Source: Thermodesulfobacteriota bacterium (lineage in GTDB: Bacteria; Desulfobacterota; Desulfobacteria; Desulfobacterales; Desulfosudaceae). From it: 64,000 bases of DNA. Made by a program: the position numbers and the translations under genes. Shown in pieces: positions 1 to 58,588 of the stretch. Below the pieces are notes generated by a model. The model was not told where the DNA came from and ran no database searches. It saw only the letters and a program-made list of their open reading frames with translations. Location: positions 1 to 64,000 of the forward strand of contig JBFMDX010000023.1 of assembly GCA_040753795.1 (NCBI GenBank). The letters run 5' to 3'. Every line of letters starts with the position of its first letter. The first letter of the stretch is position 1.

Positions 1-56
1 TGATTAAGTGATTAAGTGTTAAGTGTTAAGTTTTAAGTGATTAAGTTTTAAGTTTT
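1..56. repeat. TTAAGT short-unit array (left edge)
   Basis: About seven head-to-tail copies of a 7-8 bp unit, (G/GA/T/GG)TTAAGT, begin at or before the window edge and end just before a run of ten G. The same unit recurs near 5.6, 12.5, 23.3, 26.3-26.5 and 43.6 kb. No coding frame explains it. Function unknown. Confidence 0.85.
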
Positions 57-78
57 CGGGGGGGGGCGCAAAAAAATA

Positions 79-3414: not shown

Positions 3415-5559
3415 ATGCCGTTTGACCTGCCGAATCAGAATGAAGATGAAATTCATCTGCGCGAGTATGTAACGATCATATTAAAACGGAAACGGATCGT
3501 TATCGCCATTTTTGTGGCCGCCCTGGTGATCGGCCTGCTGGTTTCTTTAAGCGCCTCTCCCATGTACACGGCCGTCACCAGGGTCAAGGTGGAGCAGAAG
3601 GCCGGCAATCCCCTCGAGGACCTGTACGGAATTTCCCGGCAGGATCCCGCCTTTTTCAATTCCCAGATCCAGATTATTTCCAGCCTGGCCGTGATGGAAA
3701 AAGTGGTCAACATCATGAAGCTGACCGAGACCTACGCTTCTCTGTTTCCCGATAAAAAGAACAAGAAAGAGGACAAAAAACCGGCGGAGGCAAACGCGGC
3801 AACCGGCGCGCCGGAAGAAAAGCCCGTTACGGAAAAACTGGCCGCAACCCTGCTGCCCGGGTTGAAGGTCGAGCGGGTCCGCGACAGCCAGATTCTTTCC
3901 CTGTCCTATACTTCCCACAACCCGGCTTTTTCCGCCCTGGTCTGCAACACCATGCCGCGGGCTTATATCGAGCAGTTGCTTGAAATGAAGATGACCAATA
4001 CGGAATATACCATCGACTGGATGGAGAAAAAGGCGGTCACGGAACGGGAAAAACTGGAGGAGGCAGAACACGCGCTGCAGAATTATCTGGTTGCCCAGGA
4101 TATCGTTACCATTGAAAACCGCATTACCATCATTCCGGAGCGGCTGTCCCAGATCAACACCGAGTTGAGTCAGGCCGAATCCAAACAGCGGGAACTGAAG
4201 ACGATTATGGCGCAGATCGACCGCACGTCGGTGGATTCCCTGGATACCATTCCGACCATCGCGGCCGAAACCTCTCTGCAGACGATTCGCGGCCTGATCC
4301 GCGAGGCCGAACAGAATATGATTACCTTAAGCCAGAAGTACGGAGAAAAACATCCCCTTCGTATTCAGGCCCGGGATACCCTCAACGAACTGCAGGCGAA
4401 AAAAGAGGCGGAAACCCGCAACATCGTTCAGCGCATACGAAATGAAATGCAACTGGCCGCGACCAACCAGGAGAGCCTGAACCGGCAGCTTGACGATATC
4501 AAGGCCGAGGCGGCCAGGCTGAACGAAAAATCCATCCAGTACAACATTTTAAAGCGAGAGATTGAAACCCGGCGGCAGCTCTATGATGCCCTGGTGTCCC
4601 GGATCAAGGAACAGTCCATGACCAAGCAGATCCGGGATGTGGACGTGTATGTGGTGGAGCCGGCCCGCACCCCGGCGTCGCCTTCCAACCAGAACCTGCC
4701 CCGGAACCTGCTCATCGCCCTGGTCATCGGTTGTGTCGGCGGTATCGGCGCCGCCTTTTTTCTGGAATACATGGACAACACTATTTCCCTGTGCGAAGAC
4801 GCCGAGGAAAAAACCGGGGTCAAGGCGATTGTTTCCATCCCTTACATCAGCGGCGAGGACGGCAAAAACCCGGAAACTATCGTCAGCCAGCATCCCGCCT
4901 CCTCGGAAGCGGAGAGTTACAAGACCGTCAGAACCGCGCTTTCCCTGTCCACTCCGACGGGCTTTCCTAAAACCATGATGGTGACCAGCGTTTATCCCAG
5001 CGACGGCAAGACCATCACCTGCGCTAATCTGGCCATCGCCATTGCCCAGGCCGATCGGTCGGTGCTGGTGGTCGATTGCGATATGCGGCGGCCGACCCTT
5101 CACCGGGTTTTTGGCAAGAGCAGCCGGAACGGGTTCGCGGAAATTCTGACCGGGCAAATCAAGAAAGACGCGGCGATCCAGGAAACCGACATACCCAACT
5201 TGCACCTGATTCCCGCGGGCACGATCCCGCCCAACCCGTCGGACCTGCTCGCCTCGGAACAGACGGTTAAGATCATCAAGGACCTTGGCAAGAATTACGA
5301 TATCGTGATATTCGACACCCCGCCCATGGCCAGCGTTTCCGACGGCAGTGTCCTGGCCGGTTATGTGGAAAAAATCGTTCTGGTCACCCGTTCGGGAGTG
5401 ACGCGTTACGAGGATGTCGTCCGCGTCGTCAATAACCTGGGCGCTACCTCCGCTAAAATTGTGGGGCAGGTGGTCAATGCCGTGGATATGAGCCGGCAGC
5501 GGTATTACTATCCGTATTATTATAAATACACCCAGTATTATTATGCGAGGGAAGAATAG
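3415..5559 (+). CDS. Wzc-like polysaccharide co-polymerase / bacterial tyrosine autokinase
   Basis: A 714-residue inner-membrane protein controlling polysaccharide chain length and export. A Wzz domain has TM1 at residues about 27-47 and a long coiled-coil periplasmic section with many Glu/Lys heptads. TM2 is at about 430-450, followed by a cytoplasmic BY-kinase domain. Walker A is PSDGKT (Lys about 532), Walker A' is VVDCDMRRP (about 552-560) and Walker B is IFDTPP (about 632-637). The C-terminal 20 residues hold ten tyrosines, the autophosphorylation cluster of this family. The SDGKT Walker A replaces the usual GEGKT. No clear Shine-Dalgarno precedes the ATG, so translation may be coupled to the export gene, whose stop lies 12 nt upstream. 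The matching phosphatase is encoded convergently just downstream. Confidence 0.93.
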   Translation: MPFDLPNQNEDEIHLREYVTIILKRKRIVIAIFVAALVIGLLVSLSASPMYTAVTRVKVEQKAGNPLEDLYGISRQDPAFFNSQIQIISSLAVMEKVVNIMKLTETYASLFPDKKNKKEDKKPAEANAATGAPEEKPVTEKLAATLLPGLKVERVRDSQILSLSYTSHNPAFSALVCNTMPRAYIEQLLEMKMTNTEYTIDWMEKKAVTEREKLEEAEHALQNYLVAQDIVTIENRITIIPERLSQINTELSQAESKQRELKTIMAQIDRTSVDSLDTIPTIAAETSLQTIRGLIREAEQNMITLSQKYGEKHPLRIQARDTLNELQAKKEAETRNIVQRIRNEMQLAATNQESLNRQLDDIKAEAARLNEKSIQYNILKREIETRRQLYDALVSRIKEQSMTKQIRDVDVYVVEPARTPASPSNQNLPRNLLIALVIGCVGGIGAAFFLEYMDNTISLCEDAEEKTGVKAIVSIPYISGEDGKNPETIVSQHPASSEAESYKTVRTALSLSTPTGFPKTMMVTSVYPSDGKTITCANLAIAIAQADRSVLVVDCDMRRPTLHRVFGKSSRNGFAEILTGQIKKDAAIQETDIPNLHLIPAGTIPPNPSDLLASEQTVKIIKDLGKNYDIVIFDTPPMASVSDGSVLAGYVEKIVLVTRSGVTRYEDVVRVVNNLGATSAKIVGQVVNAVDMSRQRYYYPYYYKYTQYYYAREE

Positions 5560-5575
5560 CGACGCGGGTATAGCG

Positions 5576-5591
5576 CCGCGGAGCGGCGCAG
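5576..5591. repeat. GC-rich hairpin before the TTAAGT array
   Basis: GCGCCGC-GGA-GCGGCGC forms a perfect 7-bp stem right after the kinase gene and directly abuts the long TTAAGT array. A second GC hairpin (GGCGCG...CGCGCC, about 5754-5772) lies at the other end of the array. They may act as terminators between the two convergent operons. Confidence 0.5.
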
Positions 5592-5754
5592 TGTTAAGTT
5601 TTAAGTGGTTAAGTGGTTAAGTATTAAGTGGTTAAGTATTAAGTTTTAAGTGGTTAAGTTTTAAGTGGTTAAGTTTTAAGTTTTAAGTTTTAAGTGGTTA
5701 AGTGTTAAGTGTTAAGTGTTAAGTTTTAAGTGGTTAAGTGTTAAGTTTTAAGTG
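5591..5754. repeat. TTAAGT short-unit array, longest copy
   Basis: About 164 bp made almost entirely of 7- and 8-bp units (GTTAAGT, TTTAAGT, GGTTAAGT), some twenty in a row. It lies between the 3' ends of the convergent Wzc-like and tyrosine-phosphatase genes. It has no spacer structure like CRISPR and no open frame of interest. It is AT-rich against a GC-rich background. Confidence 0.9.
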
Positions 5755-5819
5755 GCGCGGCGATGTCGCGCCTTTGGTGTTTTTTGGGGGATGGGTTTTG
5801 ACGCCGCGAGGGATAGGTG

Positions 5820-9702: not shown

Positions 9703-9741
9703 TTCTCGTTTGATCCGATTTTATCTTTTTACACCTTCATC

Positions 9742-9788
9742 AAAAAAAACAGGGTGGCAAAAACTTAATTGTTCGTTGCCACCCTGTC
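9742..9788 (-). terminator. Rho-independent terminator of the histone H1-like gene
   Basis: On the minus strand the 12-bp stem ACAGGGTGGCAA/TTGCCACCCTGT is followed by a run of eight T. It lies 37 nt after the stop codon of the Lys/Ala-rich gene and before the pseudouridine synthase gene. Confidence 0.85.
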
Positions 9789-9824
9789 TTTGTAAAACGG
9801 TAAATCTTGTGTGCCGGTACCTTG

Positions 9825-10010
9825 CTACTTTTTTGTGGTCTTCTTGGCAGTAGCTTTTTTTGCCGCGGGTTTTTTGGCGGCAGCTTTTTTTGCTGCGGGT
9901 TTTTTTGCGGCAGGTTTCTTGGCCGCGGGTTTTTTCGCAGCAGGTTTTTTGGCCGCGGTTTTCTTCTTCGCGGCCGTCTTCTTGGTTGCTGCCTTCTTTG
10001 CTGGTGCCAT
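9825..10010 (-). CDS. Lys/Ala/Pro-rich histone H1-like DNA-binding protein
   Basis: A 61-residue protein built almost only from Lys, Ala, Thr and Pro. It contains seven tandem KKPA/KKAA-type pentapeptides of the form AAKKP and has no Asp, Glu or aromatic residue. This composition matches the C-terminal tails of eukaryotic histone H1 and bacterial H1-like proteins (chlamydial Hc1, AlgP, Bordetella BpH1), which bind and compact DNA without sequence specificity. The start is firmly set by AAGGAGG 5-6 nt before the ATG. It has its own promoter and a strong terminator, so it is expressed as a single gene, probably highly. The repeated codons make length variation between strains likely. The glycine/phenylalanine-rich frames on the other strand are shadows. 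Confidence 0.85.
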   Translation of the reverse strand: MAPAKKAATKKTAAKKKTAAKKPAAKKPAAKKPAAKKPAAKKAAAKKPAAKKATAKKTTKK

Positions 10011-10042
10011 GAGCCCCTCCTTTTCCTTTCTGGTTAATTAAC

Positions 10043-10065
10043 CAACCTCGTTCCCTTAACGAGGT
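10043..10065. promoter_or_regulatory. Hairpin in the leader of the histone H1-like gene
   Basis: AACCTCGTT/AACGAGGTT forms a 9-bp stem with a 5-nt loop in the 5' untranslated region, next to the 12-bp palindrome GGTTAATTAACC (10031-10042). Together they could be an operator plus an mRNA-stabilising stem; the function is inferred. Confidence 0.5.
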
Positions 10066-10108
10066 TTCACGGTGCGGTAAGAACCGCATGAGGTTGTGTT
10101 AATTTTTT

Positions 10109-12413: not shown

Positions 12414-12487
12414 ATTTTTATTCTCCATGGTTTGAAAGAATATAATAGATAAGGGGGGAAGGGGCAAGGCTTGAGGTACAGGGGGAA

Positions 12488-12552
12488 AGTTTTAAGGGTT
12501 AAGTGTTAAGTTTTAAGTGTTAAGTGTTAAGTGTTAAGTTTTAAGTTTTAAG
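12488..12552. repeat. TTAAGT short-unit array
   Basis: About eight units of GTTAAGT/TTTAAGT in the upstream region of the molybdopterin oxidoreductase gene. The array is followed directly by a GTAGAGGCACGG palindrome. Confidence 0.85.
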
Positions 12553-12563
12553 GGTTCAGGGAT

Positions 12564-16664: not shown

Positions 16665-16682
16665 TCCAAGAAGGTGGTCGAA

Positions 16683-19600
16683 TTGAAGCTGTTGCGCAGT
16701 CAGAAAGATCAGAGCATCGCGATCGTGGGAATCGGCAGTCTGTTCCCGAAATCATCCAGTCTAAAAGAGTACTGGCGCCTGCTGACCCGGGGCGAGGACG
16801 CCATTACCGACGTCCCGGCCACGCACTGGTCGGCCGTTGATTATTACCGCCAGGATCCTTCCGGCGGTGATTTCGTTTATTGTAAACGGGGCGGTTACCT
16901 TTCCCCGGTATCGTTTGATCCCACCGAATTCAATATTCCGCCCAGCATCCTGGAAGCCACCGACAGTTCTCAACTGCTGGGGCTGGTGGTCACCCGCATG
17001 GCCCTGGAAGACGCCGGATACGGGCAGGGCGGCAGGCCCTGGGACCGGGATGCCACCGGCGTGGTCATCGGCGTGACCGGAACCCAGGAACTGGTGATCC
17101 CGTTGAGTTCACGGCTGGGATTTCCCATCTGGAAAAAGGCGCTGGAAGACGCCGGTGTCTCCCGGGATCAGGCGGAACAGGTGGTGGAGCGGATCGCCGA
17201 CGCTTATGTCTCCTGGCAGGAGAACTCTTTCCCCGGACTTCTGGGTAACGTGGTGGCCGGGAGAATCGCCAACCGTTTCGACCTGGGCGGGACCAACTGC
17301 GCGGTGGACGCCGCCTGCGCCAGTTCCCTGGCGGCCGTCAACCTGGCCGTGCTGGAACTGATGTCCGGCCGCAGCGACATGATGATCGCCGGCGGCATCG
17401 ACACCTTGAACGATATTTTCATGCACATGTGCTTTTCCAAGACGTCGGTCCTGTCCTTTTCCGGAGACGCCCGGCCGTTTTCAAAAGATGCCGACGGCAC
17501 CGTGCTGGGCGAGGGGCTGGGCGTTTTTCTGCTCAAGCGCCTGGAGGACGCGGAAAGAGACAAAGACAAGATTTATGCCGTCATCAGGTCCGTGGGCACA
17601 TCCAGCGATGGCCGGTCGGCGGGCATTTACGCGCCGGTGGCGGAAGGCCAGTTAAAAGCCCTGCGGCGGGCATATGAATACGCGGATATTTCACCGGCCA
17701 CCGTTGAAATGGCCGAAGCCCACGGCACCGGCACCCGGGTCGGCGACGCCGTTGAATTTGAAGCGCTGTCCCGGTTATACAGGGAAGCCGGCGCCGGACA
17801 GGGACAGTGCGCCCTGGGATCGGTAAAGTCCATCATCGGCCATACCAAGGCGGCGGCGGGCGCGGCCAGCCTGGCCAAAACCGCCCTGGCCCTCTATCAC
17901 AAGGCCATTCTCCCCACCCTGAAGATCGGCGAGCCCGATCCCAAGCTGAACATGGACCAGTCCCCGTTTTATATCAGCACCCTGCTGCGGCCCTGGCTTT
18001 CCAACCGGAAACATCCCCGGCGGGCGGCCATGAGTTCCTTTGGCTTCGGCGGCAGCAACTACCATATGGTCCTGGAGGAATATGCCGCCGAAAAAACGGT
18101 CACCGCCTGGGACAACACCGTGGAAATCGCCGCCTTTTCCGGATCGACGAAAGCGGAGGTACTGCGGAAGATGTCCGAATTCCGGGACGCGGCCGTGGCG
18201 GCCGCTTCCGGTGCCGGGGTGTTTTCGGAAATCGTCGGCCGGCACGCGGCTGAATCGCGAAACGCTTTTCGTCATACCGACAAGCACCGGGCCCTGGTGG
18301 TTATCGATCTGTCCCGGGACAAGGCGGCCGAAACGCTTCAAGCCGCCCTGGACACCGTGGAAAAGGCGGAGCACGCCTTTACTTCCACGGAGAACGTGTT
18401 TTACGGAACGTCGGATCATCCGGACGGACCGGTCGGCAAAACCGCTTTTATTTTTCCGGGACAGGGCAGTCAGTATACTTACATGGCTCGTGACCTGGCG
18501 GTCATTTTCCCGGAAGCTCACCGCGTTTTTGAAACCGCCAACCGGCAGTTTGAGAATTTTCATGACGCCGCGGAAAAGCGGCTGTCCGATTATATTTTCC
18601 CGGCCGGTTTAACCGAAGACGTGAAAAAACAGGCCGAGGAAGCGCTGCGGAGCACGGATATCGCCCAGCCGGCCATCGGCGCCGCCAGCCTGGCCATGGC
18701 CCGGATTCTGGCCCGGTTCGGCCTGGCCGCCGACATGACCTGCGGTCACAGTTTCGGCGAACTCACCGCCCTCTGCCAGGCCGGGTGGATGGACGAGGAG
18801 ACCTTTCTCGCTCTGGCGGCCGCCCGCGGCAAATACATGGCCGCGGCGGGCCGGGAACCCGGGGCCATGATGGCCGTCAAGGAGGACCTGGCCCGGATCG
18901 AAGCCCTGGTCGCGGAAAACAGCCTGGACCTGGTGCTGGCCAACCGCAATAGTTACGATCAGGGGGTATTGTCCGGCCGGGAGGCCGAGATCGAACGGGC
19001 CCTGGCCATCTGCAAGCAGAACAAGATCAGGGCCACGCGTCTGCCGGTATCGGCCGCTTTTCACACCCCGCTGGTTCAGGACGCGGCCAAACCTTTCCGT
19101 GATTATCTGCGCAAAAAAGAAATCGCCGCCACCGCCATCCCGGTTTATTCCAACACCACCGCGGCCCTGTATCCGACGGATGACAATGAGATCAGGCAAG
19201 TGCTGGGCAGACAGATTTTGAACCCGGTGAGTTTTGTTGACGAGATCGAACGGATGTACGCGGACGGCGCCCGGATCTTCATGGAAATCGGTCCCAAATC
19301 CGTGCTGACCGGACTGGTCCGGTCCATTCTCAAGGGCAAAGAGTTTCATGCCCTGGCCCTGGATGCTTCCGGCGGCCGTAAATCCGGCCTGGAGGACCTG
19401 GCCCGGACCCTGTGTTTCTTCGCCGCCGTCGGTCATGCCGTGAACCTGGAAAAATGGGAAGACCCGCCCGTCCCGGTCGTCCGTGAACAGAAGATGTCGG
19501 TTCCCATTCTCGGCGCCAATTACCGCAGGGAAAAGCCGCCGCGGCCGAAAAAGGCCGTCGCCGCTGTTCCCCCGCCGGTCCGCCAAGAGCCGCCGGCAGA

Positions 19601-22600
19601 GCGCAAGGACGCTCCGCCGGTTCACGCGCCGGAACGGGCGCCGGTGACGCCGGCCCCGGTTTCGGCGGCATCCGACAGCGGCGTGCTGCGGGATGCCCTG
19701 AAGGTGGTCTCGGAAAGCCTCAAATCCATGCAGTCCCTTCAGCAGCAGACCGCCCTGGCGCACCAGAAGTTTCTGGAAACACAAACCGAAGCAGGCCGGG
19801 CCCTGGGCGTTGTCATGGAAAAAACCCGGCATTTGAGCGCCTTTGTCATGGACGGCAGCGCCATCCCGGTTGAAACCACTCCACGGCCGGTCCGGCCGCC
19901 ATCCGTCATGCCCGTGGTTGAACCGGTCCGGCCCGCGCCTTTGCCGGAACCGGTGACGACCGCGGCCGAAACGCCGCCGCCGGCTGGCCCGGCCGCTCCG
20001 GCGGTGGATGCCGCCATGATTCAACGGGCCATGCTCGACATCGTCAGCCGGGTGACCGGCTATCCGGTGGAGATGCTGGGCCTGGAGATGGATATCGAGA
20101 ACGACCTGGGCATCGACTCCATCAAGCGGGTGGAGATCCTGTCCGTCTTTGAAGAGGAACATCCGGACGTGCCCTCGGCCGCGCCCGAGGACCTGGCCGA
20201 GATGCGGACCCTGGGCGAGATCTGCGATCACCTGCTGTCCCTGGCCGGAGCTGTCGTCACGGCCGGAGCGCACACCGCCGTGATAACGGAAAAGGCGGCT
20301 GCCGGCATATCGGCGGCGGAGATTCAAAGCGCCATGCTCGACATCGTCAGCCGGGTGACCGGCTATCCGGTGGAGATGCTGGGCCTGGAGATGGATATCG
20401 AGAACGACCTGGGTATCGACTCCATCAAGCGGGTGGAAATCCTGTCCGTTTTTGAAGAAGAGCATCCGGACATCCCCTCGGCCGCGCCCGAGGACCTGGC
20501 CGAGATGCGGACCCTGGGCGAGATCTGCGATCACCTGCTGTCCCTGGCCGGCGCGCACACCGCCGTGACAACGGGAAATACGGCGGCGGCCGGTGTATCG
20601 GCGGCCCTGATCCAGAGCGCCATGCTGGATATCGTCAGCCGGGTGACGGGATACCCTCCGGAGATGCTGGACCTGCAAATGGATATCGAGAACGACCTGG
20701 GCATCGACTCCATCAAGCGAGTGGAGATCCTGTCGGTCTTTGAAGAGGAACATCCGGACATCCCCTCGGCCGCGCCTGAGGACCTGGCCGAGATGCGGAC
20801 CCTGGGCCAGATCTGCGATCACCTGCTCTCCCTGGCCGGCGCTTCGATAAAACCGGCGACGACTTCCGGGCAGGAAACCGCGTCCATTGAGCCGACACCG
20901 GCCATAACCGAACCGGCGACGGTTCGAGTCCCGCGACGGCGGATCGAATTACGTGACATGCCGTTGACGGACCGACGGCCGGTGACAATCGCCGACGGTC
21001 TGATGATTTTTGTGACCGGCAATGATCCGGACCTGGGACAGGCCATCTGCGACCGGATGATATCTTCCGGCGTCCGGTCCTGTTTTTTAAATACCATTGA
21101 CTCCGGCCAAGATTTTTCAAAAGCCGGCGGACTGGTGATCGTTTCCAGGATCGAGGTCGGGGTTGACACGCTCTGGTCCGCTGCCGATGAAGCTTACGTA
21201 AAGGACGTGTTCGCACTGGCGGCCAAGGCCGGTCCGGCACTGGTGAAAAATTCGGAAGGTGGAAAGGACACGGTTTTCGCGGCCATTACCCGCCTGGACG
21301 GCGCCATGGGCTTTGGCGATAAGGCCGATTTCAACCCCCTGCAGGGAGCCCTGGCCGGCCTGGTCAAAACCGCCGCCATTGAATGGCCGACAGTGGCCTG
21401 CCGGGCCGTTGACGCGGATCCCGGCTGGACGGACACCGACGCCGTGGCGGCGGCCGTTACGGCGGAGATCCTGAACCAGACGGGCCCGGTCGAGGTGGGC
21501 CTGACCAGAGGATCCAGGCGGGTGATCGCGCTGGTTGAAGCTGCCTGTCCGGAAGGTGATATCCGGCTGGAAGCGGGGGACGTGATCGTCGTTTCCGGCG
21601 GCGCCAGGGGCGTGACGGCACAGTGCGTCAAGGCCCTGGCCGGACGCGCGCCCGCCGCCATCGCGCTGCTGGGCCGATCCCCTCTGCCGGCGGCCGAACC
21701 CGAATGGCTGGGCGGCGTCAACGGAGAAGCGGAGATCAAGAAGAAGATCATGGAAAACGAGTTTTCCGGCCGCAAGATCTCTCCCATGGAACTGGAGGCA
21801 TCTTATAAGAAATATATAGCCAACCGTGAAGTGTCCGATACCATCGCTTATGTCCGGGGCCTGGGCCGGAAGGTCGTTTATTACCCGGTGGACATCCGTG
21901 ATCCGGAGGCCGTTAAAAAAACGATTGACGTCATCCGCCGGGACCAGGGCACCATCCGTTGTCTCATTCACGGCGCCGGCGTCCTGGAAGACCGGTTTAT
22001 CGTCGAAAAAACCCGGCCGCAGTTTGACCGCGTCTTTGATACCAAGGTGGCGGGCGCCCGGGCGCTTTTGTCCGCCGTTGATCCGGCGGACTTGCGCTAT
22101 GTTGTCTTTTTCTCTTCGGTCAGCGCCCGCATGGGCAACAGAGGGCAGGTGGATTATGCCATGGCCAACGAGGTGCTGAACAAAACCGCCCGTAAGCTTT
22201 CCTTTCGCCTGCCGGAATGCCGGGTCATCGCCATCAACTGGGGGCCATGGGACGGCGGCATGGTGACGCCGTCTTTGAAACGGGAATTTGAAAAGAACGG
22301 GCTGGCCCTGATTCCTCTGGAAGCGGGCGCTCAATGCCTGCTGGCCGAAATGGGCGGCCGCGACCGGGACGAGAACGAGATTGTGATCGGCGCCGGATTT
22401 TCCGACCTGATTCCGGGAACTGCCTCTCCGGCTGACGCGGGCCATGCGAACAAAGAACCGGATGTGTCCGTCAATAACAGCGACCTGTCCGTGGCCTTTG
22501 AACGCGAGGTCAGCCTGTCGACTTTTCCGGTGTTAAAGGCGCACATGCTGGGCGGCAAGGCGGTGGTGCCTTTTGCCCTGGCCGCGGAATGGGTCGGCAG

Positions 22601-23324
22601 CGGCGCGCTTCACGCCAACCCCGGCCTGCTGTTGACCGGTATCGATGACATGCGGGTCCTTTCCGGTATCGTTCTGGACGGCGCTTCGGAAAACGTGGCG
22701 GTGATGACGGGAAAGCCGAAGAAAAACGGTTCGGTGTTCGAGGTCGAGGTCCAGGTCAGTGCCGGGAAAGATGCCGCCGGCAAACGCCTGAAGTATGCCG
22801 CCCGGGCCGTGCTTTGCGCCGACTACGAAACACCGCCGGCTTTTCGTGAACCCGCTTCCCTGGCCTCGGGCGGTTACGCCAGGCCGGTCCGGGAAGTCTA
22901 TGAGAAAATTTTGTTCCACGGCCGGGAACTGGCCGGAATCCGTGAAATACCCGCCTGCACTCCGGACGGGATCAAGGCCCTGGTGGCCTGCGCGCCGCCG
23001 CCGCGTCAATGGATCTCCCAGCCCCTGCGAAACACCTGGCTGGCCGATCCCCTGGTGCTGGACACCGCTTTCCAGCTGGGCATTGTCTGGTGCTACGAAA
23101 ACGCCGGCATGGTCTGCCTGCCGGTTTCCTTTAAAACGTTCCGGCAGTACCGGCCGTCTTTCCCGGCGGACGGCGTGATCACGGTTCTGGAAGTGAACCA
23201 GCGGTCCGGTCACCGCATCGGCGGTGATTTTACCTTCCTGGACGCGGACGGCATTGTCGTGGCCCGCATGACCGGCTACGAAGCGGTCATGGACAAGTCG
23301 CTGGAGAAGGCGTTTAAGTTTTAA
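16683..23324 (+). CDS. pfaA: PfaA-like multidomain fatty-acid/polyketide synthase (KS-AT-ACPx3-KR-DH)
   Basis: A 2213-residue iterative type I synthase. KS: residues 10-460, with Cys about 212 in VDAACASS, then EAHGTGT and GHTKAAAG. AT: about 600-900, FPGQGSQY and the nucleophile Ser about 690 in GHSFGE. A Pro/Ala-rich linker is followed by three ACPs whose phosphopantetheine Ser lie in LGIDSIKR at about 1146, 1247 and 1343. KR: about 1480-1910, VSGGARGV and Tyr about 1825 in VDYAMANE. C-terminal hot-dog dehydratase: HxxxGxxxxP motif at His 1954 (HMLGGKAVVP) and DTAFQ at Asp 2127. Domain order matches PfaA. The start is TTG with AGAAGG 8 nt upstream; a GTG at 16674 overlaps that site. No PfaB, PfaC or phosphopantetheinyl transferase is nearby. 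The last codons, AAG TTT TAA, belong to a TTAAGT array. Confidence 0.93.
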   Translation: MKLLRSQKDQSIAIVGIGSLFPKSSSLKEYWRLLTRGEDAITDVPATHWSAVDYYRQDPSGGDFVYCKRGGYLSPVSFDPTEFNIPPSILEATDSSQLLGLVVTRMALEDAGYGQGGRPWDRDATGVVIGVTGTQELVIPLSSRLGFPIWKKALEDAGVSRDQAEQVVERIADAYVSWQENSFPGLLGNVVAGRIANRFDLGGTNCAVDAACASSLAAVNLAVLELMSGRSDMMIAGGIDTLNDIFMHMCFSKTSVLSFSGDARPFSKDADGTVLGEGLGVFLLKRLEDAERDKDKIYAVIRSVGTSSDGRSAGIYAPVAEGQLKALRRAYEYADISPATVEMAEAHGTGTRVGDAVEFEALSRLYREAGAGQGQCALGSVKSIIGHTKAAAGAASLAKTALALYHKAILPTLKIGEPDPKLNMDQSPFYISTLLRPWLSNRKHPRRAAMSSFGFGGSNYHMVLEEYAAEKTVTAWDNTVEIAAFSGSTKAEVLRKMSEFRDAAVAAASGAGVFSEIVGRHAAESRNAFRHTDKHRALVVIDLSRDKAAETLQAALDTVEKAEHAFTSTENVFYGTSDHPDGPVGKTAFIFPGQGSQYTYMARDLAVIFPEAHRVFETANRQFENFHDAAEKRLSDYIFPAGLTEDVKKQAEEALRSTDIAQPAIGAASLAMARILARFGLAADMTCGHSFGELTALCQAGWMDEETFLALAAARGKYMAAAGREPGAMMAVKEDLARIEALVAENSLDLVLANRNSYDQGVLSGREAEIERALAICKQNKIRATRLPVSAAFHTPLVQDAAKPFRDYLRKKEIAATAIPVYSNTTAALYPTDDNEIRQVLGRQILNPVSFVDEIERMYADGARIFMEIGPKSVLTGLVRSILKGKEFHALALDASGGRKSGLEDLARTLCFFAAVGHAVNLEKWEDPPVPVVREQKMSVPILGANYRREKPPRPKKAVAAVPPPVRQEPPAERKDAPPVHAPERAPVTPAPVSAASDSGVLRDALKVVSESLKSMQSLQQQTALAHQKFLETQTEAGRALGVVMEKTRHLSAFVMDGSAIPVETTPRPVRPPSVMPVVEPVRPAPLPEPVTTAAETPPPAGPAAPAVDAAMIQRAMLDIVSRVTGYPVEMLGLEMDIENDLGIDSIKRVEILSVFEEEHPDVPSAAPEDLAEMRTLGEICDHLLSLAGAVVTAGAHTAVITEKAAAGISAAEIQSAMLDIVSRVTGYPVEMLGLEMDIENDLGIDSIKRVEILSVFEEEHPDIPSAAPEDLAEMRTLGEICDHLLSLAGAHTAVTTGNTAAAGVSAALIQSAMLDIVSRVTGYPPEMLDLQMDIENDLGIDSIKRVEILSVFEEEHPDIPSAAPEDLAEMRTLGQICDHLLSLAGASIKPATTSGQETASIEPTPAITEPATVRVPRRRIELRDMPLTDRRPVTIADGLMIFVTGNDPDLGQAICDRMISSGVRSCFLNTIDSGQDFSKAGGLVIVSRIEVGVDTLWSAADEAYVKDVFALAAKAGPALVKNSEGGKDTVFAAITRLDGAMGFGDKADFNPLQGALAGLVKTAAIEWPTVACRAVDADPGWTDTDAVAAAVTAEILNQTGPVEVGLTRGSRRVIALVEAACPEGDIRLEAGDVIVVSGGARGVTAQCVKALAGRAPAAIALLGRSPLPAAEPEWLGGVNGEAEIKKKIMENEFSGRKISPMELEASYKKYIANREVSDTIAYVRGLGRKVVYYPVDIRDPEAVKKTIDVIRRDQGTIRCLIHGAGVLEDRFIVEKTRPQFDRVFDTKVAGARALLSAVDPADLRYVVFFSSVSARMGNRGQVDYAMANEVLNKTARKLSFRLPECRVIAINWGPWDGGMVTPSLKREFEKNGLALIPLEAGAQCLLAEMGGRDRDENEIVIGAGFSDLIPGTASPADAGHANKEPDVSVNNSDLSVAFEREVSLSTFPVLKAHMLGGKAVVPFALAAEWVGSGALHANPGLLLTGIDDMRVLSGIVLDGASENVAVMTGKPKKNGSVFEVEVQVSAGKDAAGKRLKYAARAVLCADYETPPAFREPASLASGGYARPVREVYEKILFHGRELAGIREIPACTPDGIKALVACAPPPRQWISQPLRNTWLADPLVLDTAFQLGIVWCYENAGMVCLPVSFKTFRQYRPSFPADGVITVLEVNQRSGHRIGGDFTFLDADGIVVARMTGYEAVMDKSLEKAFKF
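20028..20249 (+). repeat. Tandem ACP unit 1
   Basis: First of three tandem acyl-carrier-protein coding units within pfaA. It is nearly identical in DNA to unit 2, with only a few, mostly silent, differences across 220 bp. The attachment Ser codon is at 20118. Confidence 0.9.
20331..20552 (+). repeat. Tandem ACP unit 2
   Basis: Second ACP coding unit, with the attachment Ser codon at 20421. Its close DNA identity to unit 1 indicates recent duplication or gene conversion. Confidence 0.9.
20619..20839 (+). repeat. Tandem ACP unit 3
   Basis: Third ACP coding unit, with the attachment Ser codon at 20709. It is more diverged in its first third (PPEMLDLQMD instead of PVEMLGLEMD) but identical in the LGIDSIKRVEILS core. 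Confidence 0.9.
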
Positions 23325-23367
23325 GTGTTAAGTGTTAAGTTTTAAGTGTTAAGTTTTAAGTTTTAAG
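23316..23367. repeat. TTAAGT array overlapping the pfaA stop codon
   Basis: About seven units that start inside the last codons of pfaA (TTTAAGTTTTAAGTG supplies Lys-Phe-stop). The array ends at a solo AT-rich element terminus (23369-23385). Confidence 0.85.
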
Positions 23368-26265: not shown

Positions 26266-26284
26266 CGGTTAACCGTTTAAAAGT

Positions 26285-26396
26285 TTTAAGTGATTAAGTG
26301 GTTAAGTTTTAAGTGTGAAGGGTTCAGGGCCCACGAGCCCTGGACCTTAAACCCTAAACCCTTAACACTTAAAACTTAACCACTTAATCACTTAAA
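26285..26396. repeat. 45-bp inverted repeat built from TTAAGT units
   Basis: The left arm (26285-26329) and right arm (26352-26396) are reverse complements over 45 bases with two mismatches, separated by 22 nt. The arms are TTAAGT array units plus an AAGGGTTYAGGG end. In RNA this would form a very long hairpin between the DUF4105 gene and the small membrane-protein gene. Confidence 0.85.
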
Positions 26397-26436
26397 GCTA
26401 ACAAGACCGCAAGTAATTGTCAGTTATCGGTTTGGT

Positions 26437-26500
26437 CCCGGGCCGCGCCCGGCTGGGACGCTTAAAACTTAACCACTTAACACTTAACACTTATAACTTA
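26437..26500. repeat. CCGGGC hairpin plus inverted TTAAGT array
   Basis: CCGGGCCGCGCCCGG, a 6-bp GC stem, is followed by units in the opposite orientation (ACTTAA, 26461-26500) up to the end of the DUF4105 gene. A similar CCGGGC hairpin precedes the array at 43.6 kb. Confidence 0.7.
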
Positions 26501-28405
26501 TCAGAAAAAAACATGCCATACACCCGAAGCTTCTATTCCTGCCCACTGCCGGACGTGCGACCATTTCAATTCTACTGCCAGGTGGTTGTTTTTCGAAACC
26601 TTCAGGTTGTTTGAGAAGGCCAGAGCCTGTTCCGTATGCGTATCTCCCAGGGCGAATCCTTTGATTTCCCCATAAAGATGCATTTTTACCTCAGGGGTTA
26701 TTGTTTTGATCAGTCCGCAGGTTGCGCCCGGCCCCATGGCGTAATTCTTTTCCATCGCCCCGGAAACATCCGCTTCCGCCGTTACCATGGCATAGGTTAT
26801 CCCGGAAACGGGGAGTTCGGCGGCCAGTCCGGTTCCGCCGTTAAGCCGGTAATAAAGGGATTCATCTCCGTCGGCCATGGGTTTGCGATGGAAACCGGTA
26901 TCCACTTTCCAGGAGAGGGGCTTGAAAAAGTCATCCCGGCCGGGGATGGAAATGATATCGATGATATCCATCTGCTGGAGCTTCAACCGACCTGAAGCGG
27001 CGAAATATCTGAGCCTGGCGTCGATGAATTCAATCTGAGCGCCCTGGTTCTGGAAATGATCCATATCCAGCACATCGGTAAAAGCCGGCCGGTAGCGCAC
27101 CTCACCGAAGACGTCGCCGCCGCTTTCCCCGCCGGCCAGACTGATCCGGCCGGAGTCATGGCCGGTATCCGGCCGGGGCGGAGGTGGAATTTCCTCATCA
27201 TCCGTGCCGTTCATTATGCCCAGTTTGCTGCGCGCCTTCAGTGTCTGCAGGAATCTTTCCTGGTAAGTCTCCCGGTCGATGTCTTTTTTAACCAGAAGGT
27301 ATTGCAACTGTTCGGCGGCCAGGTCCAGCACGCCGGCCTGTCGGTCGGCAGCAAGCGAGGGAAGGGCAGTGCCGACTTCCGCCGGTGCCATCCGGCCGTT
27401 GATAACGTCAAGGGCCGATTCGACAGACACGGGATCGAGGGTTTCCATGGCGTGACGGATGCGGGTGGCTTTTGACGGCCGGAAAACCGCGTCGGCGATC
27501 AGGCCGGCCCTGCCGATCTCCCGGACGGTGTCCAGGGGAAGAACCGCCGGCCCATCGAATCGCGAAACCAGGTCGACCGACGGCCGGGCCGCTTCCATAA
27601 GAAAAAGCAGGTTGTAGGAGCAGTTTTCGTCAAAGAAAAAGTAGTCGGTATAGACGCCTTTGTCGAATTCCTTGACGTGTCGGATCAGGCGCCTGATTTC
27701 ATCCGGAGTGAGGTTGAGGGGATATTCCCAGATATCCCGCTGATTGATATCGCCGTACTCCTGGATTTTTTTATAATAGGGATCCACTGAATAATATCCC
27801 TGGAAGAGGCCGAACAGACCGTTAAAGGCAAAGGCCAGATCGCTGGTGGTGTCGACCCTGGCCGCGTAATTCACGGCATAGGCCAGGCGCCTGTTTTCAT
27901 ATTCGGTGTTGATGGCCAGGAGCGTATGACCGAACATGGAGGCCGGGTTGTTCAGGTAGCTGGATGGGAACACCAGCGTTGCCGTCACCGGATCAATGCG
28001 GTCGATCTCCGGGCACATCCGGTCGGCAAAAGCATCGGCAGGGATGGCCAGGGTTTCCCTGAGCCACATGTACCGGCCGTAAAATCGGCACACATAGGAC
28101 GCGGCCGCTCCGTCGTCCGGCTGGAACAGGGCGGTGATGGAAGATTCCAGTTCGGCCCGGGGATTGGTTTTACCGTCGGGCGCCAGAAAATAACGCGGGT
28201 CATCCACCTGGCTCCTGAAACCGAAAAGCGTTTTCCGGTAATGCATCAGGATATGCCAGTAACGGTCTTCCGACAGGTTTTTCTCGCGGGAGAGGGCGAT
28301 CAGCCCATCCACGTCCGGCTGTCCGGCGCGGGCCCGGGCGGGATAAAATGAGGCCAGCAGAAAGACGAATATGAAAAAAAAAGGCACATGGCAAAAAGAA
28401 GCCAT
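26501..28405 (-). CDS. DUF4105 (Lnb-like) exported protein
   Basis: A protein of about 634 residues with an N-terminal signal peptide (MASFCHVP, then a hydrophobic core FFFIFVFLLASF, then ARARA-G). The region around residues 120-290 (VFPSSYLNNPASMFGHTLL, DFFFDENCSYNLLFLMEA) is diagnostic of the DUF4105/Lnb N-terminal periplasmic family, with conserved His and Cys that suggest a thiol-hydrolase fold. The last 200 residues are rich in beta-type alternation and end in VWHVFF, suggesting an outer-membrane barrel. The frame stays open to a TTG at 28441, but that would translate straight through a terminator-like hairpin (28376-28417). The ATG at 28405 lies inside that hairpin and has only a weak AAAGGG site. 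The start is therefore uncertain. Confidence 0.8.
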   Translation of the reverse strand: MASFCHVPFFFIFVFLLASFYPARARAGQPDVDGLIALSREKNLSEDRYWHILMHYRKTLFGFRSQVDDPRYFLAPDGKTNPRAELESSITALFQPDDGAAASYVCRFYGRYMWLRETLAIPADAFADRMCPEIDRIDPVTATLVFPSSYLNNPASMFGHTLLAINTEYENRRLAYAVNYAARVDTTSDLAFAFNGLFGLFQGYYSVDPYYKKIQEYGDINQRDIWEYPLNLTPDEIRRLIRHVKEFDKGVYTDYFFFDENCSYNLLFLMEAARPSVDLVSRFDGPAVLPLDTVREIGRAGLIADAVFRPSKATRIRHAMETLDPVSVESALDVINGRMAPAEVGTALPSLAADRQAGVLDLAAEQLQYLLVKKDIDRETYQERFLQTLKARSKLGIMNGTDDEEIPPPPRPDTGHDSGRISLAGGESGGDVFGEVRYRPAFTDVLDMDHFQNQGAQIEFIDARLRYFAASGRLKLQQMDIIDIISIPGRDDFFKPLSWKVDTGFHRKPMADGDESLYYRLNGGTGLAAELPVSGITYAMVTAEADVSGAMEKNYAMGPGATCGLIKTITPEVKMHLYGEIKGFALGDTHTEQALAFSNNLKVSKNNHLAVELKWSHVRQWAGIEASGVWHVFF

Positions 28406-30662: not shown

Positions 30663-30715
30663 CCCCTTACACCTTACACCTCAAACCTCACACCTTATAC
30701 CTTGAACCCTGCACC
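30663..30715. repeat. ACCTTAYACC-type short-unit tract
   Basis: Seven or eight imperfect units such as CCTTACA, CCTCAAA and CCTTATA run to the end of the second porin gene. On the other strand this is AAGGTNTRAGGT, a motif also found at 35107, 57148 and 58529. Confidence 0.65.
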
Positions 30716-30716
30716 T

Positions 30717-32024
30717 TTAGAATTTTAATATCGCGTCCAGTTGCAGCCGGTCTTCATCCTTCTGGCCGTCCTTGTCTTCGTCTTCGCGCTCGGTCATGTA
30801 ACCCGCGGCCGCCAGGGAGACATTGTCCGTCACGCAATAAACGACATCCAGCTTGTGGCCTTTGCAGTTGGTGCCGCCACCGTGGAAATCCGAATCCACG
30901 AATACCGCCGGAAAGGCGTAATCTTCCAGTTCCTGATAGAGGTACTGGAAGTAAATATCGCCTTTTTTCTTCTTGCTGCCGGCGTCAAAACCGACCTGCC
31001 AGCCCGCGTCACGGTCATCACCGCCGTAGGCCAGCAGTTTGGCCGGGTCGCTGTCACCGGGGTTGACGCCGTCTTCGACCAGGTCATCGATATCCTGCTC
31101 AAGGTTGGTGATATAGGAAGCGAACAGGGAAACGGGAACAGGCAGGACCTTTTTCATCTTGAGCCTGGTCCCGATTTCCACGCAACCGAATTCATTCAGG
31201 AGATTGCCGTCGGCGTCGAATATCATCTGCTGGCCGAGGCTCTTGTTGCCGCCCAGAAATGTTTCATCGTCTCCCAGAACGCCATCGCCCCAGGCCAGGT
31301 CATCCAGATGCGTGAAATCGTAATAGGTGGCGGCTACCGTCAGGCCGATATCTTCGGCCAGGTTGAATTCTCCGCCGGCCTGCCAGGCGGTCATCATGGG
31401 ATCGGTGTTGAACTCCTTGCTGTTCAGTTCCTCCACCACCCACTGCCCCAGGTTGATAAACATTTTGGCGTTTTCGGTCATTTCAAAATTAAATGACTCG
31501 GACAATCCTTCCGGGTTCACGTCCGAATCCCATACGATCGAAGAGGTGAACAGGGGATTGGCCTGTTTCCCGCCGGTTACTTTGAGATAATCCGTAGCGT
31601 CCCAGGCGGCATAGGCCTGATCGATCCAGATTTCCTTTCCCCGGGCATGATCGTCAAAACTGGCGTTGGTGGAGTTCTGCTCGCCTGAACCGGAGGCCAG
31701 TTTCACAACCACCTTGGTGGTATCGGACGTTTTGGCATCCAATCCAAGCCGAAGACGGAAGCGTTCCCGGTGCCGGTCATAATCATGATCCCCTTCTTCC
31801 CGCCACTGGGTATCATGACGCAGCCGCAGGTCGCCGCTCAGCTTGATTTTTTCGACCCAGGAGGGAACCACCTGGATGCTTTTGGCTTCTTCCGCCGTCA
31901 GGACGTTTTTTTCCACCAGCTTGTCGAGCAACTTGGTGCTTTCACCTGCTGTCGCCATATTCACGCAAGTGAACCCCAGCGCCAGCGTCAACGAACCCAT
32001 CCACATCAATAACGCTTTCTTCAT
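30717..32024 (-). CDS. Putative porin (Porin_5-like)
   Basis: A 435-residue outer-membrane protein with a signal peptide (residues 1-27, ending ATA). A short periplasmic helix (LLDKLVEKNVLTAEEAKSI) leads into a barrel beginning EKIKLSGDLRLRHDTQ and continuing with RFRLRLGLDAK and WIDQAYAAWDATDYLKV. This layout fits the putative porin family PF16930. It ends LQLDAILKF. The ATG at 32024 has GGGAGGA 8-10 nt upstream and heads a clean signal peptide; the frame stays open to 32081 but that region lacks one. It is rich in Asp/Glu loops, hinting at cation preference (inference). It is divergent from the kinase-like gene at 32351. Confidence 0.85.
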   Translation of the reverse strand: MKKALLMWMGSLTLALGFTCVNMATAGESTKLLDKLVEKNVLTAEEAKSIQVVPSWVEKIKLSGDLRLRHDTQWREEGDHDYDRHRERFRLRLGLDAKTSDTTKVVVKLASGSGEQNSTNASFDDHARGKEIWIDQAYAAWDATDYLKVTGGKQANPLFTSSIVWDSDVNPEGLSESFNFEMTENAKMFINLGQWVVEELNSKEFNTDPMMTAWQAGGEFNLAEDIGLTVAATYYDFTHLDDLAWGDGVLGDDETFLGGNKSLGQQMIFDADGNLLNEFGCVEIGTRLKMKKVLPVPVSLFASYITNLEQDIDDLVEDGVNPGDSDPAKLLAYGGDDRDAGWQVGFDAGSKKKKGDIYFQYLYQELEDYAFPAVFVDSDFHGGGTNCKGHKLDVVYCVTDNVSLAAAGYMTEREDEDKDGQKDEDRLQLDAILKF

Positions 32025-35099: not shown

Positions 35100-35106
35100 G
35101 GGCAGG

Positions 35107-35150
35107 GTATAAGGTTTGAGGTTTGAGGTTTAAGGTTCAGGGTTTAAGAT
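35107..35150. repeat. AAGGTTTGAGG-type short-unit tract
   Basis: Five or six 7-bp units (AAGGTTT, GAGGTTT, AAGGTTC) directly after the TolC-family gene. Confidence 0.6.
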
Positions 35151-35197
35151 GAAATGTAGCGGAAGGCTTCACAGGCTGTCCAATAAACCAAAACATT

Positions 35198-35300
35198 CGT
35201 CATTCCGGCCTCCGAGCCGGAATCCAGAAAAATGAATAAAATTAATATGTATACTGGATCCCGGCTCACGTTTCGCTTCGCTCCACGGGCCGGGATGACG
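35198..35300. repeat. Inverted-repeat element with CGTCATTCCGG ends
   Basis: A 103-bp element. CGTCATTCCGG at the left pairs with CCGGGATGACG at the right. Inner halves CGGAATCCAG and CTGGATCCCGG also pair. Elements of this CGTCATTCC...GGATGACG type are common dispersed palindromes in many bacteria; no coding frame is present. Confidence 0.8.
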
Positions 35301-41907: not shown

Positions 41908-43587
41908 ATGTGGCGTTCATTAAGTATTTCCAAAAAGATTTATATCGGCCTCGGTATCCTGCTGACGGGTTATTTTGTTTCCATGCTGTTCGGGTTTGTA
42001 AAAGCGGTCGATACGGAAAAACGGCTTCGATCCGTTCATGCTTATCTTTCCCCCGCGGCGCATCAGAGTCAGGCCGCTCTGGCGGCTTTCAAAGGGCAGA
42101 TAAAAGCGTTTGAGGACATTTTTCTGACCGGTGACGAGACCCTCGTTGAAGAAGCCGACAGGGAGTCCGCCATCCTTCTTCAGTCTCTTCAGGACATCAG
42201 CCGTCTGGCCTTGCAGTACGAGGGGGAAAACGGAGATATTGATAACCTGATAAAAAAGGTTACCGTCTTTTCCGATTCCGCCCGTCGGACCTACCTGGCT
42301 TTTATTGTCAAAACGGATGGTGATCAGGCTGCCGGCAACGGGGGGCAGAATCAGATGAGTACGCTGGCGGAAGAAACCAGGATCCTTGAAAAAAGACTGC
42401 AGGAGCTGCAGACCGGATACAGTGACAGGCTGAAAAAGGACTTGTCCGGAATTATCGTATACAGCCAGAGGCAGCGCTACCTGAATCTCCTGGCCTTCTG
42501 TCTGATCGCTGCTATATCGACGGTTTTCGTCAGTCTGATTTTACGCCGCTCCGTCATTCTGCCCCTGCGGAGCGCCGCGGACATGGTCAAAAGCATCGCC
42601 AAAGGCAAAGGAGACCTGACCAGACGACTGGCCATCCGGAATGAAGACGAAGTAGGAGATCTTTCCCGCTGGTTTAATACGTTTGTTGAAAACATGCAGG
42701 AAATGACTCGTTCCATTATAACCGATGTCGGCACCCTCAAGGACGCTTCCACGGCTTTGTCCGGCATGTCCGACGTGATGAGCGGAACTTCCGATAAAAT
42801 GGTCGGGAAAACCAACTCCGTGTCCGCGGCCATGGAACAGATGGACGCCGGCATGAGAACCATCGCCGTTTCCATGGAGGAAGCCACCTCCAGTACGGAT
42901 CAGGTGGCCGGTTTTGCCGAAGAAATGACCGCGACCATCAATGAAATCGCCATGAGTTCCCACAATGCGGCTGAAGTAACCCGCAAGGCCGTGGAGAAAT
43001 CTCATCAGGCGTCGCAACGGGTGGGTGAACTGGGGGCCGCGGCCGATGAGATCGGCAAGGTTACCGAAATGATCAACGAGATATCGGAACAGACCAACCT
43101 GCTGGCCTTGAATGCCACCATCGAAGCCGCCCGGGCCGGAGAGGCCGGCAAGGGCTTCGCGGTGGTGGCGGATGAAATCAAGGTTCTGGCCCGTCAGACG
43201 GCGGAAGCGACACTGGACATCAAAGAAAGAATTTCCGGGATCCAGGCGACCACTTCCTGGACGGTCCGGGATATTAAGGAAATAGGCGATATCATCGACA
43301 AGGTCAATGAAACGGTGACGATTATCGCCTCCTCCGTGGAACAGCAGTCCGCTTCCACCAAGGAAATCGCCATCAACGTGTCGGAAATCTCCAAGGCCAT
43401 CGGCGACGTCAACGACAGCGTTTCGCAAAGTTCGAATTTCACCACCCAGGTGGCGGAGGACCTTGCCGGCGTCACCCAGAGCGCGATTGATGTTTCGGAG
43501 AACAGTTCGCGTCTGAAGGAAAACGCGGCCGGCCTCTCCCGACTGGCCGATCAGCTCCATCGGCTGGTGGGGCAGTTCAAGGTTTAA
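41908..43587 (+). CDS. Methyl-accepting chemotaxis protein
   Basis: A 559-residue chemoreceptor with TM1 at about residues 9-30, a helical periplasmic sensor of about 150 residues, TM2 near 195-215 and HAMP at about 215-270 ([20 protein letters not shown]). The signalling hairpin includes [20 protein letters not shown], the near-invariant tip, and ends in [15 protein letters not shown]. It senses an unknown periplasmic signal and controls CheA. No other chemotaxis gene is in the window, so it is an orphan receptor. The ATG at 41908 puts the signal anchor at the N-terminus; the frame is open to 41863 without benefit. Ribosome binding site weak (AGAAGTG). Confidence 0.92.
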
Positions 43588-43597
43588 GCGTCACAAC

Positions 43598-43691
43598 CGG
43601 GCGCGGCCCGGAATTAAAACTATAAGTTTTAAGTTTTAAGTTTTAAGTGTTAAGTTTTAAGTGTTAAGTTTTAAGTTGGAAGTGATTAAGG
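43598..43691. repeat. CCGGGC hairpin followed by TTAAGT array
   Basis: CCGGGC-GCG-GCCCGG (43598-43612) right after the MCP gene, then about nine TTTAAGT/GTTAAGT units (43622-43691). This is the same pairing as at 26.4 kb, in the opposite orientation. Confidence 0.8.
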
Positions 43692-43693
43692 TT

Positions 43694-43717
43694 TAGCGGA
43701 AGGCTTCAGCCTTCCAG
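43694..43717. repeat. Palindrome TAGCGGAAGGCTTC/GCCTTCCAG, copy 2
   Basis: A 24-bp palindrome matching the reverse complement of 33513-33536 with one mismatch. It directly follows a TTAAGT array. Confidence 0.7.
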
Positions 43718-52969: not shown

Positions 52970-53010
52970 GACGACCTCCCTTTTTAAATTCAATGAACCC
53001 ATCCTTTATA

Positions 53011-53526: not shown

Positions 53527-53561
53527 AAAAAGTTAAAAACGCGTTTGAAAGGCTATCAAGT

Positions 53562-57001: not shown

Positions 57002-57151
57002 TTAAGGCCACCTCTAAAAATTGCCTTTTGGCCCGATTTCTGTGTTGCGCTCAAATTTTAATCCTCGAAATACTTCCATGTATTCCTGCGGTTAAAATTT
57101 TCGCGCGCCTTGAACTCGAACCAAAATTCTAATTTTTAGAGGTGGCCTTAA
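57002..57151. repeat. MITE-like hairpin element, copy 3 (inverted)
   Basis: 150 bp with ends TTAAGGCCACCTCTAAAAATT and AATTTTTAGAGGTGGCCTTAA, in the opposite orientation to copies 1 and 2. It lies upstream of the DUF362-ferredoxin gene and of the histidine kinase gene. Confidence 0.85.
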
Positions 57152-57212
57152 GGTTCAAGGTTTAAGGTGCAGGGTATAAGGTGCAGGGTTTAAGGTGTAA
57201 GGTTCAGGGCGC
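57152..57212. repeat. AAGGTTYAGGGT short-unit tract
   Basis: About eight units such as AAGGTTC, AAGGTTT and AAGGTGCAGGG between the hairpin element and the DUF362 gene. Confidence 0.65.
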
Positions 57213-58528: not shown

Positions 58529-58588
58529 AAGGTTCAAGGTGAATGGTGAATGGTGAAGGGTGAAGGGTGAAGGGTGAAGGGTGAAGGG
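58529..58588. repeat. GTGAAGG short-unit tract
   Basis: Seven or eight imperfect copies of GTGAAGG/GTGAATG directly after the DUF362 gene. Confidence 0.7.

Follow-up and report, generated by a model that had tools for sequence, protein, structure and literature searches.

Arrays in the window

The DNA analyzed here (the window) spans bases 1 to 64,000 of a contig with 65,800 bp, which belongs to a draft genome of 4.75 Mb in 41 contigs. Eight tandem arrays of a TTAAGTN unit, with 3 to 22 units each, were detected in it by Tandem Repeats Finder and by a scan for TTAAGT, at the same places where the first-pass annotation had described runs of such units. Between the TTAAGT hexamers, T, G, A, GG and GA predominate as spacers, others or longer ones being few, and therefore the unit measures 7 or 8 bp.

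The first array (1..57, plus strand; 4-53 in the scan) has seven full units, is cut by the contig end and is followed by a gene that starts at 156. The longest one of the window, with 22 units (5590..5754, plus strand; scan 5594-5753), lies between convergent genes, with 34 bp separating its 5' edge from the end of gene 3415-5559. A GC-rich hairpin, GCGCCGC...GCGGCGC (5573..5589), occupies the place between the end of the Wzc-like gene and this array, and on the other side a GGCGCGGCGATGTCGCGCC hairpin that precedes a T-rich run (5754..5786, plus strand) has a sequence resembling that of a terminator. The array at 12484..12556 (plus strand; scan 12499-12546) is placed between divergent genes, and that at 23311..23367 (plus strand; scan 23314-23361) overlaps the final 11 bp of a polyketide synthase gene, the stop codon of which sits within the array.

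A head-to-head pair follows, with a left arm (26280..26316, plus strand; scan 26286-26314) containing the spacers GA, GG and T, an inner part of degraded heptamers and the tip of a GC-rich hairpin (26317..26362), and a right arm (26363..26396, minus strand; scan 26367-26395) that mirrors the left one including the variable spacers. A second minus-strand array (26461..26500; scan 26467-26487) extends up to the stop codon side of gene 26501-28387. The last TTAAGTN array (43623..43695, plus strand; scan 43629-43676) is found after an MCP gene with its stop at 43587, a CCGGGCGCGGCCCGG hairpin being located before the array. GC-rich hairpins had been pointed out earlier as neighbors of several arrays, and they were indeed seen at 5.6, 26.4 and 43.6 kb, the last two belonging to a different dispersed repeat.

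Four arrays of related units are also present in the window (starting at 30665, 35106, 57148 and 58538). A degenerate array of the CCTTACA type (30665..30717, minus strand) reaches the end of gene 30717-32024, and another of the AGGTTTG type (35106..35145, plus strand) comes after a gene end at 35099; both have the same polarity as the TTAAGTN arrays (see below), as does a GGTGAAG array (58538..58588, plus strand) after a gene end at 58526. The fourth, degenerate and of the AAGGTTC type (57148..57206, plus strand), adjoins a dispersed element of about 150 bp.

Genome-wide count, position and polarity

A pattern of three consecutive units (TTAAGTNTTAAGTNTTAAGT) has 136 exact matches in the whole genome and its reversed control pattern has none, a count beyond chance that confirms the family suspected from the window. 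For the analysis of position, the window was combined with 20 genomic stretches (19 at the places of listed matches and one extending the contig of the window), a set which covers 131 of the 136 matches and amounts to 50 arrays. Genes were predicted with a home-made, simple codon-model gene finder and are not a curated annotation.

None of the 50 arrays lies within a predicted gene and five share 4-18 bp with the edge of one, in agreement with the earlier observation that the arrays are found almost only between genes. With respect to the TTAAGT strand, the gene on the 5' side is the nearer one in 41/47 arrays (p=2e-7; three of the 50 did not have a neighbor on each side and were left out of the count). 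This holds for 23/24 arrays beside a stop and for 18/23 beside a start, and the median distance to the gene is 27.5 bp from the 5' edge of the array and 201 bp from its 3' edge. Thus, the TTAAGT strand begins at a gene edge and runs into the gap, regardless of the direction of the gene. That the arrays occur in both orientations was correctly described in the first-pass annotation; this description was incomplete, as orientation obeys a polarity rule which had been missed.

Among gaps with a single array, 18/21 fit the polarity. Several arrays are present in 12 gaps, 11 of which hold both strands, the twelfth having two minus-strand arrays, and in all gaps with both strands (11/11) the arrangement is head-to-head with the plus array on the left. 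A strong inverted partner was detected on the 3' side of 24/48 arrays and on the 5' side of none. Motifs related to the unit are likewise commoner on the 3' side (2.26 vs 0.57 per 60 bp, with a background of 0.28). The array edges start with AAGT in 18/48 cases. Gaps with arrays are longer than those without them (median 290 vs 175 bp, p=0.001) and show no preference for a gene layout (tandem/convergent/divergent 24/5/4 with arrays vs 60/11/18 without, p=0.57).

A decay of the units inwards from the array edge was also considered as a general law. With a more stringent test, in which the first 8 bp were disregarded, it was significant only in one relative, G047 (p=0.003), with p=0.21 in the genome under study, p=0.72 in the relative G012 and p=0.98 in the cross-phylum set, and it was therefore dropped. 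Arrays near contig ends were left out of this test as well as of those on edge starts and inverted partners.

Paired arrays, insertion sites and length variation

In two operons the gaps of this genome were compared with those of relatives. The korB-korG gap measures 238 bp and contains two facing arrays. korB was matched in 49/58 genomes (the genome under study included), and in the closest 15 loci compared, 14 of which have both genes, the gap is of -8 to 36 bp in 12 and longer in two (693 and 866 bp). The glpA-glpB gap measures 161 bp, also with two facing arrays, and at the four loci of relatives compared the genes overlap in all three that were measurable, one of them from the same family. 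Since the spacer is absent from most of the relatives compared, it would be new as a whole at both sites. Target-site duplications were not seen by eye in several array pairs; the empty sites of the two operons come from other genera.

Within 12 elements, the two arms resemble each other more than arms of different elements do (permutation p=0.014), with the own right arm being the best match for only 3/12 left arms. In the pair at 26283-26396 the TTAAGT arms are an exact mirror, spacers included, and the gap that holds it (26266-26500) folds far better than shuffled sequences (z=-9.4). The largest solo array (5560-5800) folds modestly (z=-2.45), 4/200 shuffles being equally good. A core common to the elements of this genome was not found, the inner pieces reaching an average score of 12.0 vs 8.8 when shuffled; the sole high score fits another repeat that is common to two gaps of one stretch (L023).

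Exact duplications of several units occur within arrays, among them a block of eight spacers present twice at L025:4642-4787, which indicates that length changes in multi-unit steps. These duplications support a change of array length by slippage or unequal exchange, slippage and recombination having been among the proposals made for the window.

Related arrays in the order and in other phyla

TTAAGTN is an uncommon unit in the order, as a three-unit match was detected in 9/58 genomes searched (the one under study included) and in neither of the two same-family genomes among these 58. Other units were observed in some relatives: TTAAGT followed by TTAAGGG in G047, TTGAATG in G026, TGAATTN in G008, G012, G042 and G050, TTAGCTN facing AGCTAAN in G051 and CTGAAGN in G012. 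The latter is represented by 209 matches, with none for the control, and shows the same polarity, the nearer gene being the 5' one for 48/63 arrays (p=4e-5). Several CTGAAGN arrays are present in 22 gaps of G012, both strands occur in 19 of these, and all 19 are of the facing type.

In this single-contig genome a compact element, (CTGAAGR)n - 34-nt core - (CTTCAGY)n, was identified at many gaps (loci L184-L202). Of the pairs separated by at most 70 bp, to the exclusion of wider ones, 14 were taken; the inner pieces are of 33-35 nt in 11 of them and align as one core, and the 14 pieces align far better than when shuffled (mean score 4.7 vs -3.7). A profile built from these pieces recovered 16 copies in the stretches of G012, 12 with both arms, a result that is partly so by construction, and no copies in the stretches of other genomes. 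The compact element of G012 is thus a good model to trace how such elements move.

Other sets are less uniform. In G047 the polarity holds for 12/14 arrays and an inverted partner was detected for 0/14. The TGAATT arrays of G012 have no polarity (7/13), one more being inside a gene, and in G008 the one scorable array per unit goes against the rule for both units. Random stretches of relatives carried little information on polarity (1/4 or 2/5 depending on the threshold), with a gene finder that was weak on G051 and G005. A sample of 504 kb was also drawn from 15 genomes, namely the window plus randomly chosen stretches of 14 relatives. In it, period 7 accounts for eight intergenic arrays and no genic ones, the most of any period, five of the eight coming from the window; outside the window it counts three vs at most two for other periods (7 vs 5 with looser settings).

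Beyond the order, a scan of named genomes for five units of TTAAGTN returned at least 117 stretches in many phyla, of which 80, among the matches listed, were examined; Desulfonema magnum 4be13, a species of Desulfobacterales, is one of the carriers. In this survey the longest ORFs served as genes, several loci share one draft genome, and the genome under study may be absent. Among the matches listed, no array lies in an ORF (0/83) and the gene on the 5' side is the nearer one for 39/56 scorable arrays, 27/83 having been left out as they did not have a neighbor on each side. By group, again among the matches listed, the polarity was observed in 20/27 arrays of Bacteroidota and Ignavibacteria, in 6/8 of Desulfobacterota, a set too small when taken alone (p=0.29), in 9/10 of others and in 4/11 of Gammaproteobacteria, and on account of this last figure the rule fails in the gammaproteobacterial TTAAGT set. 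A strong inverted partner is found on the 3' side of 11/72 arrays and on the 5' side of 1/72, with at least 60/72 arrays having no strong partner, and the edges start with AGT in 24/76, likewise among the matches listed. From the sets tested, TTAAGTN is one member of a kind of repeat in which the unit varies by lineage and the 7-bp period and, mostly, the polarity are constant.

Comparison with known repeats

Cyanobacteria contain short tandemly repeated repetitive sequences with 7-bp units located between genes. In the literature searched, which covered few papers from subscription journals, no report was found that deals with arrays of TTAAGT or, for Desulfobacterales, with arrays of this type. 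The closest precedents are the heptamer arrays GGGAATC of Xanthomonas and GGGGA(C/T)T of Nostoc, which are mostly intergenic and can form quadruplexes, the subject of the study that describes them (PMC4692102). In Xanthomonas they are located on average 28 nt from the ORF on their 5' side and 160 nt from that on the 3' side, irrespective of ORF direction, and two genomes contain 70 and 75 close pairs of convergent orientation; in Nostoc the pattern of distances is similar and pairs are few, and the authors did not find a regulatory role (PMC4692102). The TTAAGTN arrays resemble both in the tandem 7-bp unit (with 8-bp variants here), in their intergenic location (0/50 in genes) and in the nearness of the 5' gene (41/47), and they share with those of Xanthomonas the convergent pairs (11/11 gaps with both strands here) (PMC4692102). 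They differ from the latter repeats in the unit and the phylum and, having at most GG between hexamers, would not form quadruplexes. The TTAAGTN unit contains no run of G and shows the same polarity and facing pairs, as does a second unit in a relative, and quadruplex formation can thus be discarded as a general explanation of the polarity. The polarity had been published for the quadruplex-forming heptamers of Xanthomonas and Nostoc and the facing pairs for those of Xanthomonas, TTAAGTN being a variant of this kind of repeat. Of the two findings that, according to the first-pass annotation, would speak against its view, a location inside genes was not observed (0/50), and an explanation by a known element applies in part, as this type of repeat is on record with other units (PMC4692102).

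Direct repeats of TAACTGA, intergenic and near gene edges, are described for Beggiatoaceae, cyanobacteria and Bacteroidetes in PMC4679880, which also quotes a survey where heptanucleotides are the most abundant long simple repeats in most of the genomes covered. In Flexibacter, 12/14 sets of TAACTGA read toward a start and one follows a stop in reversed orientation. This arrangement agrees with the polarity of TTAAGTN, whereas the Microcystis sample given there (6 forward and 8 reverse to the start) does not; in the main genome of that study the repeats are mostly just upstream of starts, in contrast to TTAAGTN arrays, about half of which follow stops (PMC4679880). Dispersed elements made of heptanucleotides in tandem are reported for Geobacter metallireducens, a host formerly placed in the same delta-proteobacteria; unlike the TTAAGTN arrays, they have different units and a fixed number of four or five copies, and one family is also genic (PMC2700814). 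The BrickBuilt MITE of Porphyromonas gingivalis is likewise intergenic and contains a tandem array and has small inverted-repeat ends; it differs from TTAAGTN in a 23-bp unit placed in the middle of the element and in a defined leader and tail (PMC4596501).

Candidate classes and machinery

Various known classes were examined and discarded. The arrays are not CRISPR, as the first-pass annotation had already stated, since they combine a 6-bp repeat with 1-2-bp spacers vs the longer repeats and unique spacers of those loci. The arrays of this genome do not match a MITE in that no sequence shared between the inverted ends was found here, in contrast to G012 with its common core. A Chi-like site was discarded as well, TTAAGT occurring 8 times in sense and 4 times in antisense in 212 kb of coding sequence vs an average of 20 for hexamers of identical composition. 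Searches against Rfam gave no matches in the window at the gathering score.

As to the machinery, the Y1 transposase expected beside REP/BIME elements of the RAYT type has two matches in this genome, and the 16-kb stretch around the one examined contains no array. Reverse-transcriptase templating was rejected as a general need, as RVT_1, with one gene in this genome, was not found in the array-bearing G012 and G020 (the latter 85% complete) among 10 genomes searched, and Ku-dependent end joining as Ku was not found in 57/58 genomes searched, the one under study included, only G045 having it. In the genome G051, Y1 transposase genes are densely clustered (G051:C1:3845001-3885000, loci L237-L238); it has 32 matches to them genome-wide and 50 to reverse transcriptases, many with identical scores.

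Origin of the arrays

The arrays look like orderly inserted DNA and not like random stutter. According to the explanation that we favor, and that in our judgment has about an even chance of being correct, the TTAAGTN arrays would derive from small palindromic insertions that act as spacers, of which they would be the outer arms or the only arm left, resized by slippage. Each arm would be a run of heptamers with the G-bearing strand going from the gene edge into the gap, and since paired arms face each other, an element with both arms would be able to form an extended hairpin. Copies may have spread through the genome as palindromic elements, the arms would then grow or shrink in 7-bp steps via slippage or unequal exchange, and the arrays would persist as the gaps tolerate them rather than for a function in the host. 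This explanation draws on the polarity, the head-to-head pairing, the absence from genes and the insertion at two sites, along with a likeness between arms of one element, somewhat greater than between different elements, that is demonstrated in part. The view derived from the window was sustained in part, namely for a change in length by slippage or unequal exchange; an origin by insertion is supported at two sites, and the polarity and the head-to-head rule had been overlooked.

Several results go against the palindromic elements. Among solo arrays 18/21 are polar with no partner, as are 12/14 in G047 with partners in 0/14; no transposase could be linked to them and no target-site duplication was seen; and no polarity exists in the gammaproteobacterial TTAAGT arrays (4/11, among the matches listed) or in the TGAATT arrays of G012 (7/13). 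Besides, support for a single dispersed element is restricted to G012; the genome under study yielded no common core, and its elements could be of greater age or have arisen in another manner.

If the arrays were plain hot spots of replication slippage, heptamers would grow in place from local seeds, 7 bp suiting the polymerase, and selection would spare the genes. Such a scenario is consistent with the block duplications within arrays, with period-7 arrays being only intergenic in the 504-kb sample and with TTAAGTN arrays occurring in many phyla, and it is a published hypothesis for the abundance of heptamers, quoted in PMC4692102 and PMC4679880. However, slippage by itself yields neither the polarity, nor 30/30 head-to-head gaps (this genome plus G012), nor one unit in 50 arrays of a single genome, and we consider this explanation unlikely. 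The location at gene edges and the fixed orientation would also suit a protein that binds the arrays as a boundary or nucleoid mark, a proposal made quite improbable by their neutrality to gene direction and layout, by a number of units that is not fixed (3 to 22) and by the presence of other units in other families. A comparably small probability is assigned to an element acting at the RNA level, in which arrays neighboring stop and start codons would form intercistronic hairpins with each other and thereby influence translation or the stability of the mRNA. The folding of gap 26266-26500 (z=-9.4) and the location of the G strand after stops and of the C strand before starts speak for it; yet solo arrays have no partner, the largest of them folding modestly (z=-2.45), and arrays are also carried by convergent and divergent gaps.

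Facing arrays with the G strand inward would likewise result if repeats were added to broken DNA ends, in a telomere-like healing, and the ends were then joined. This geometry recurs in several units and several phyla, and the array edges often start with AAGT here (18/48) and with AGT in the cross-phylum set (24/76, among the matches listed). Nevertheless, Ku is missing from 57/58 genomes searched, this one included, RVT_1 was not found in the array-bearing G012 and G020, and the core shared in G012 points to the copying of a ready-made element, so that healing of this type appears highly improbable. We know of no enzyme that adds heptamers at broken ends. A variant would be that one undescribed process, needing neither Ku nor reverse transcriptase, adds 7-nt repeats to 3' DNA ends and joins them afterwards; hardly probable as it is, it would, if true, make the shared polarity of unrelated heptamers in unrelated phyla, with the G-bearing strand outward from the gene edge, the product of that one process. 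Whether by palindromic insertion, as we favor, or by another route, any mechanism must account for a sharp rule, the gammaproteobacterial set excepted, that is testable in any genome, and the interest of these arrays rests on this rule spanning different units and several phyla.

Other repeats beside the arrays

Other repeats were observed in the window and in the additional stretches. The dispersed element of about 150 bp is MITE-like, with inverted ends GGCCACCTCTAAAAATTGCC...TTTTTAGAGGTGGCC, is sometimes found within heptamer arrays and is present at 57005-57147, in the gaps 52970-53561 and 61358-61713 and in L010, L016 and L027. A second dispersed element, a GC-rich palindrome of the GCGTCCCAACCGGGCGCGGCCCGG type, adjoins several arrays (26397-26460 and 43587-43620; L018, L020 and L023), and the gap that holds the piece at 26397..26460 matches four other gaps. 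A further dispersed repeat, GTCATTCCGGC...GGATCCCGGCTCACG...CCGGGATGAC, is found in many gaps (35180-35300; L009, L020, L022, L023 and L025).

Within genes, a 288-bp tandem duplication (88% matches) is located at 20261-20842 in the polyketide synthase gene (16674-23324), the protein of which has three carrier-domain stretches. On the minus strand, the region 9721-10089 contains a small ORF with 15-bp repeats that perhaps encodes a lysine/alanine-rich tail similar to that of histone H1.
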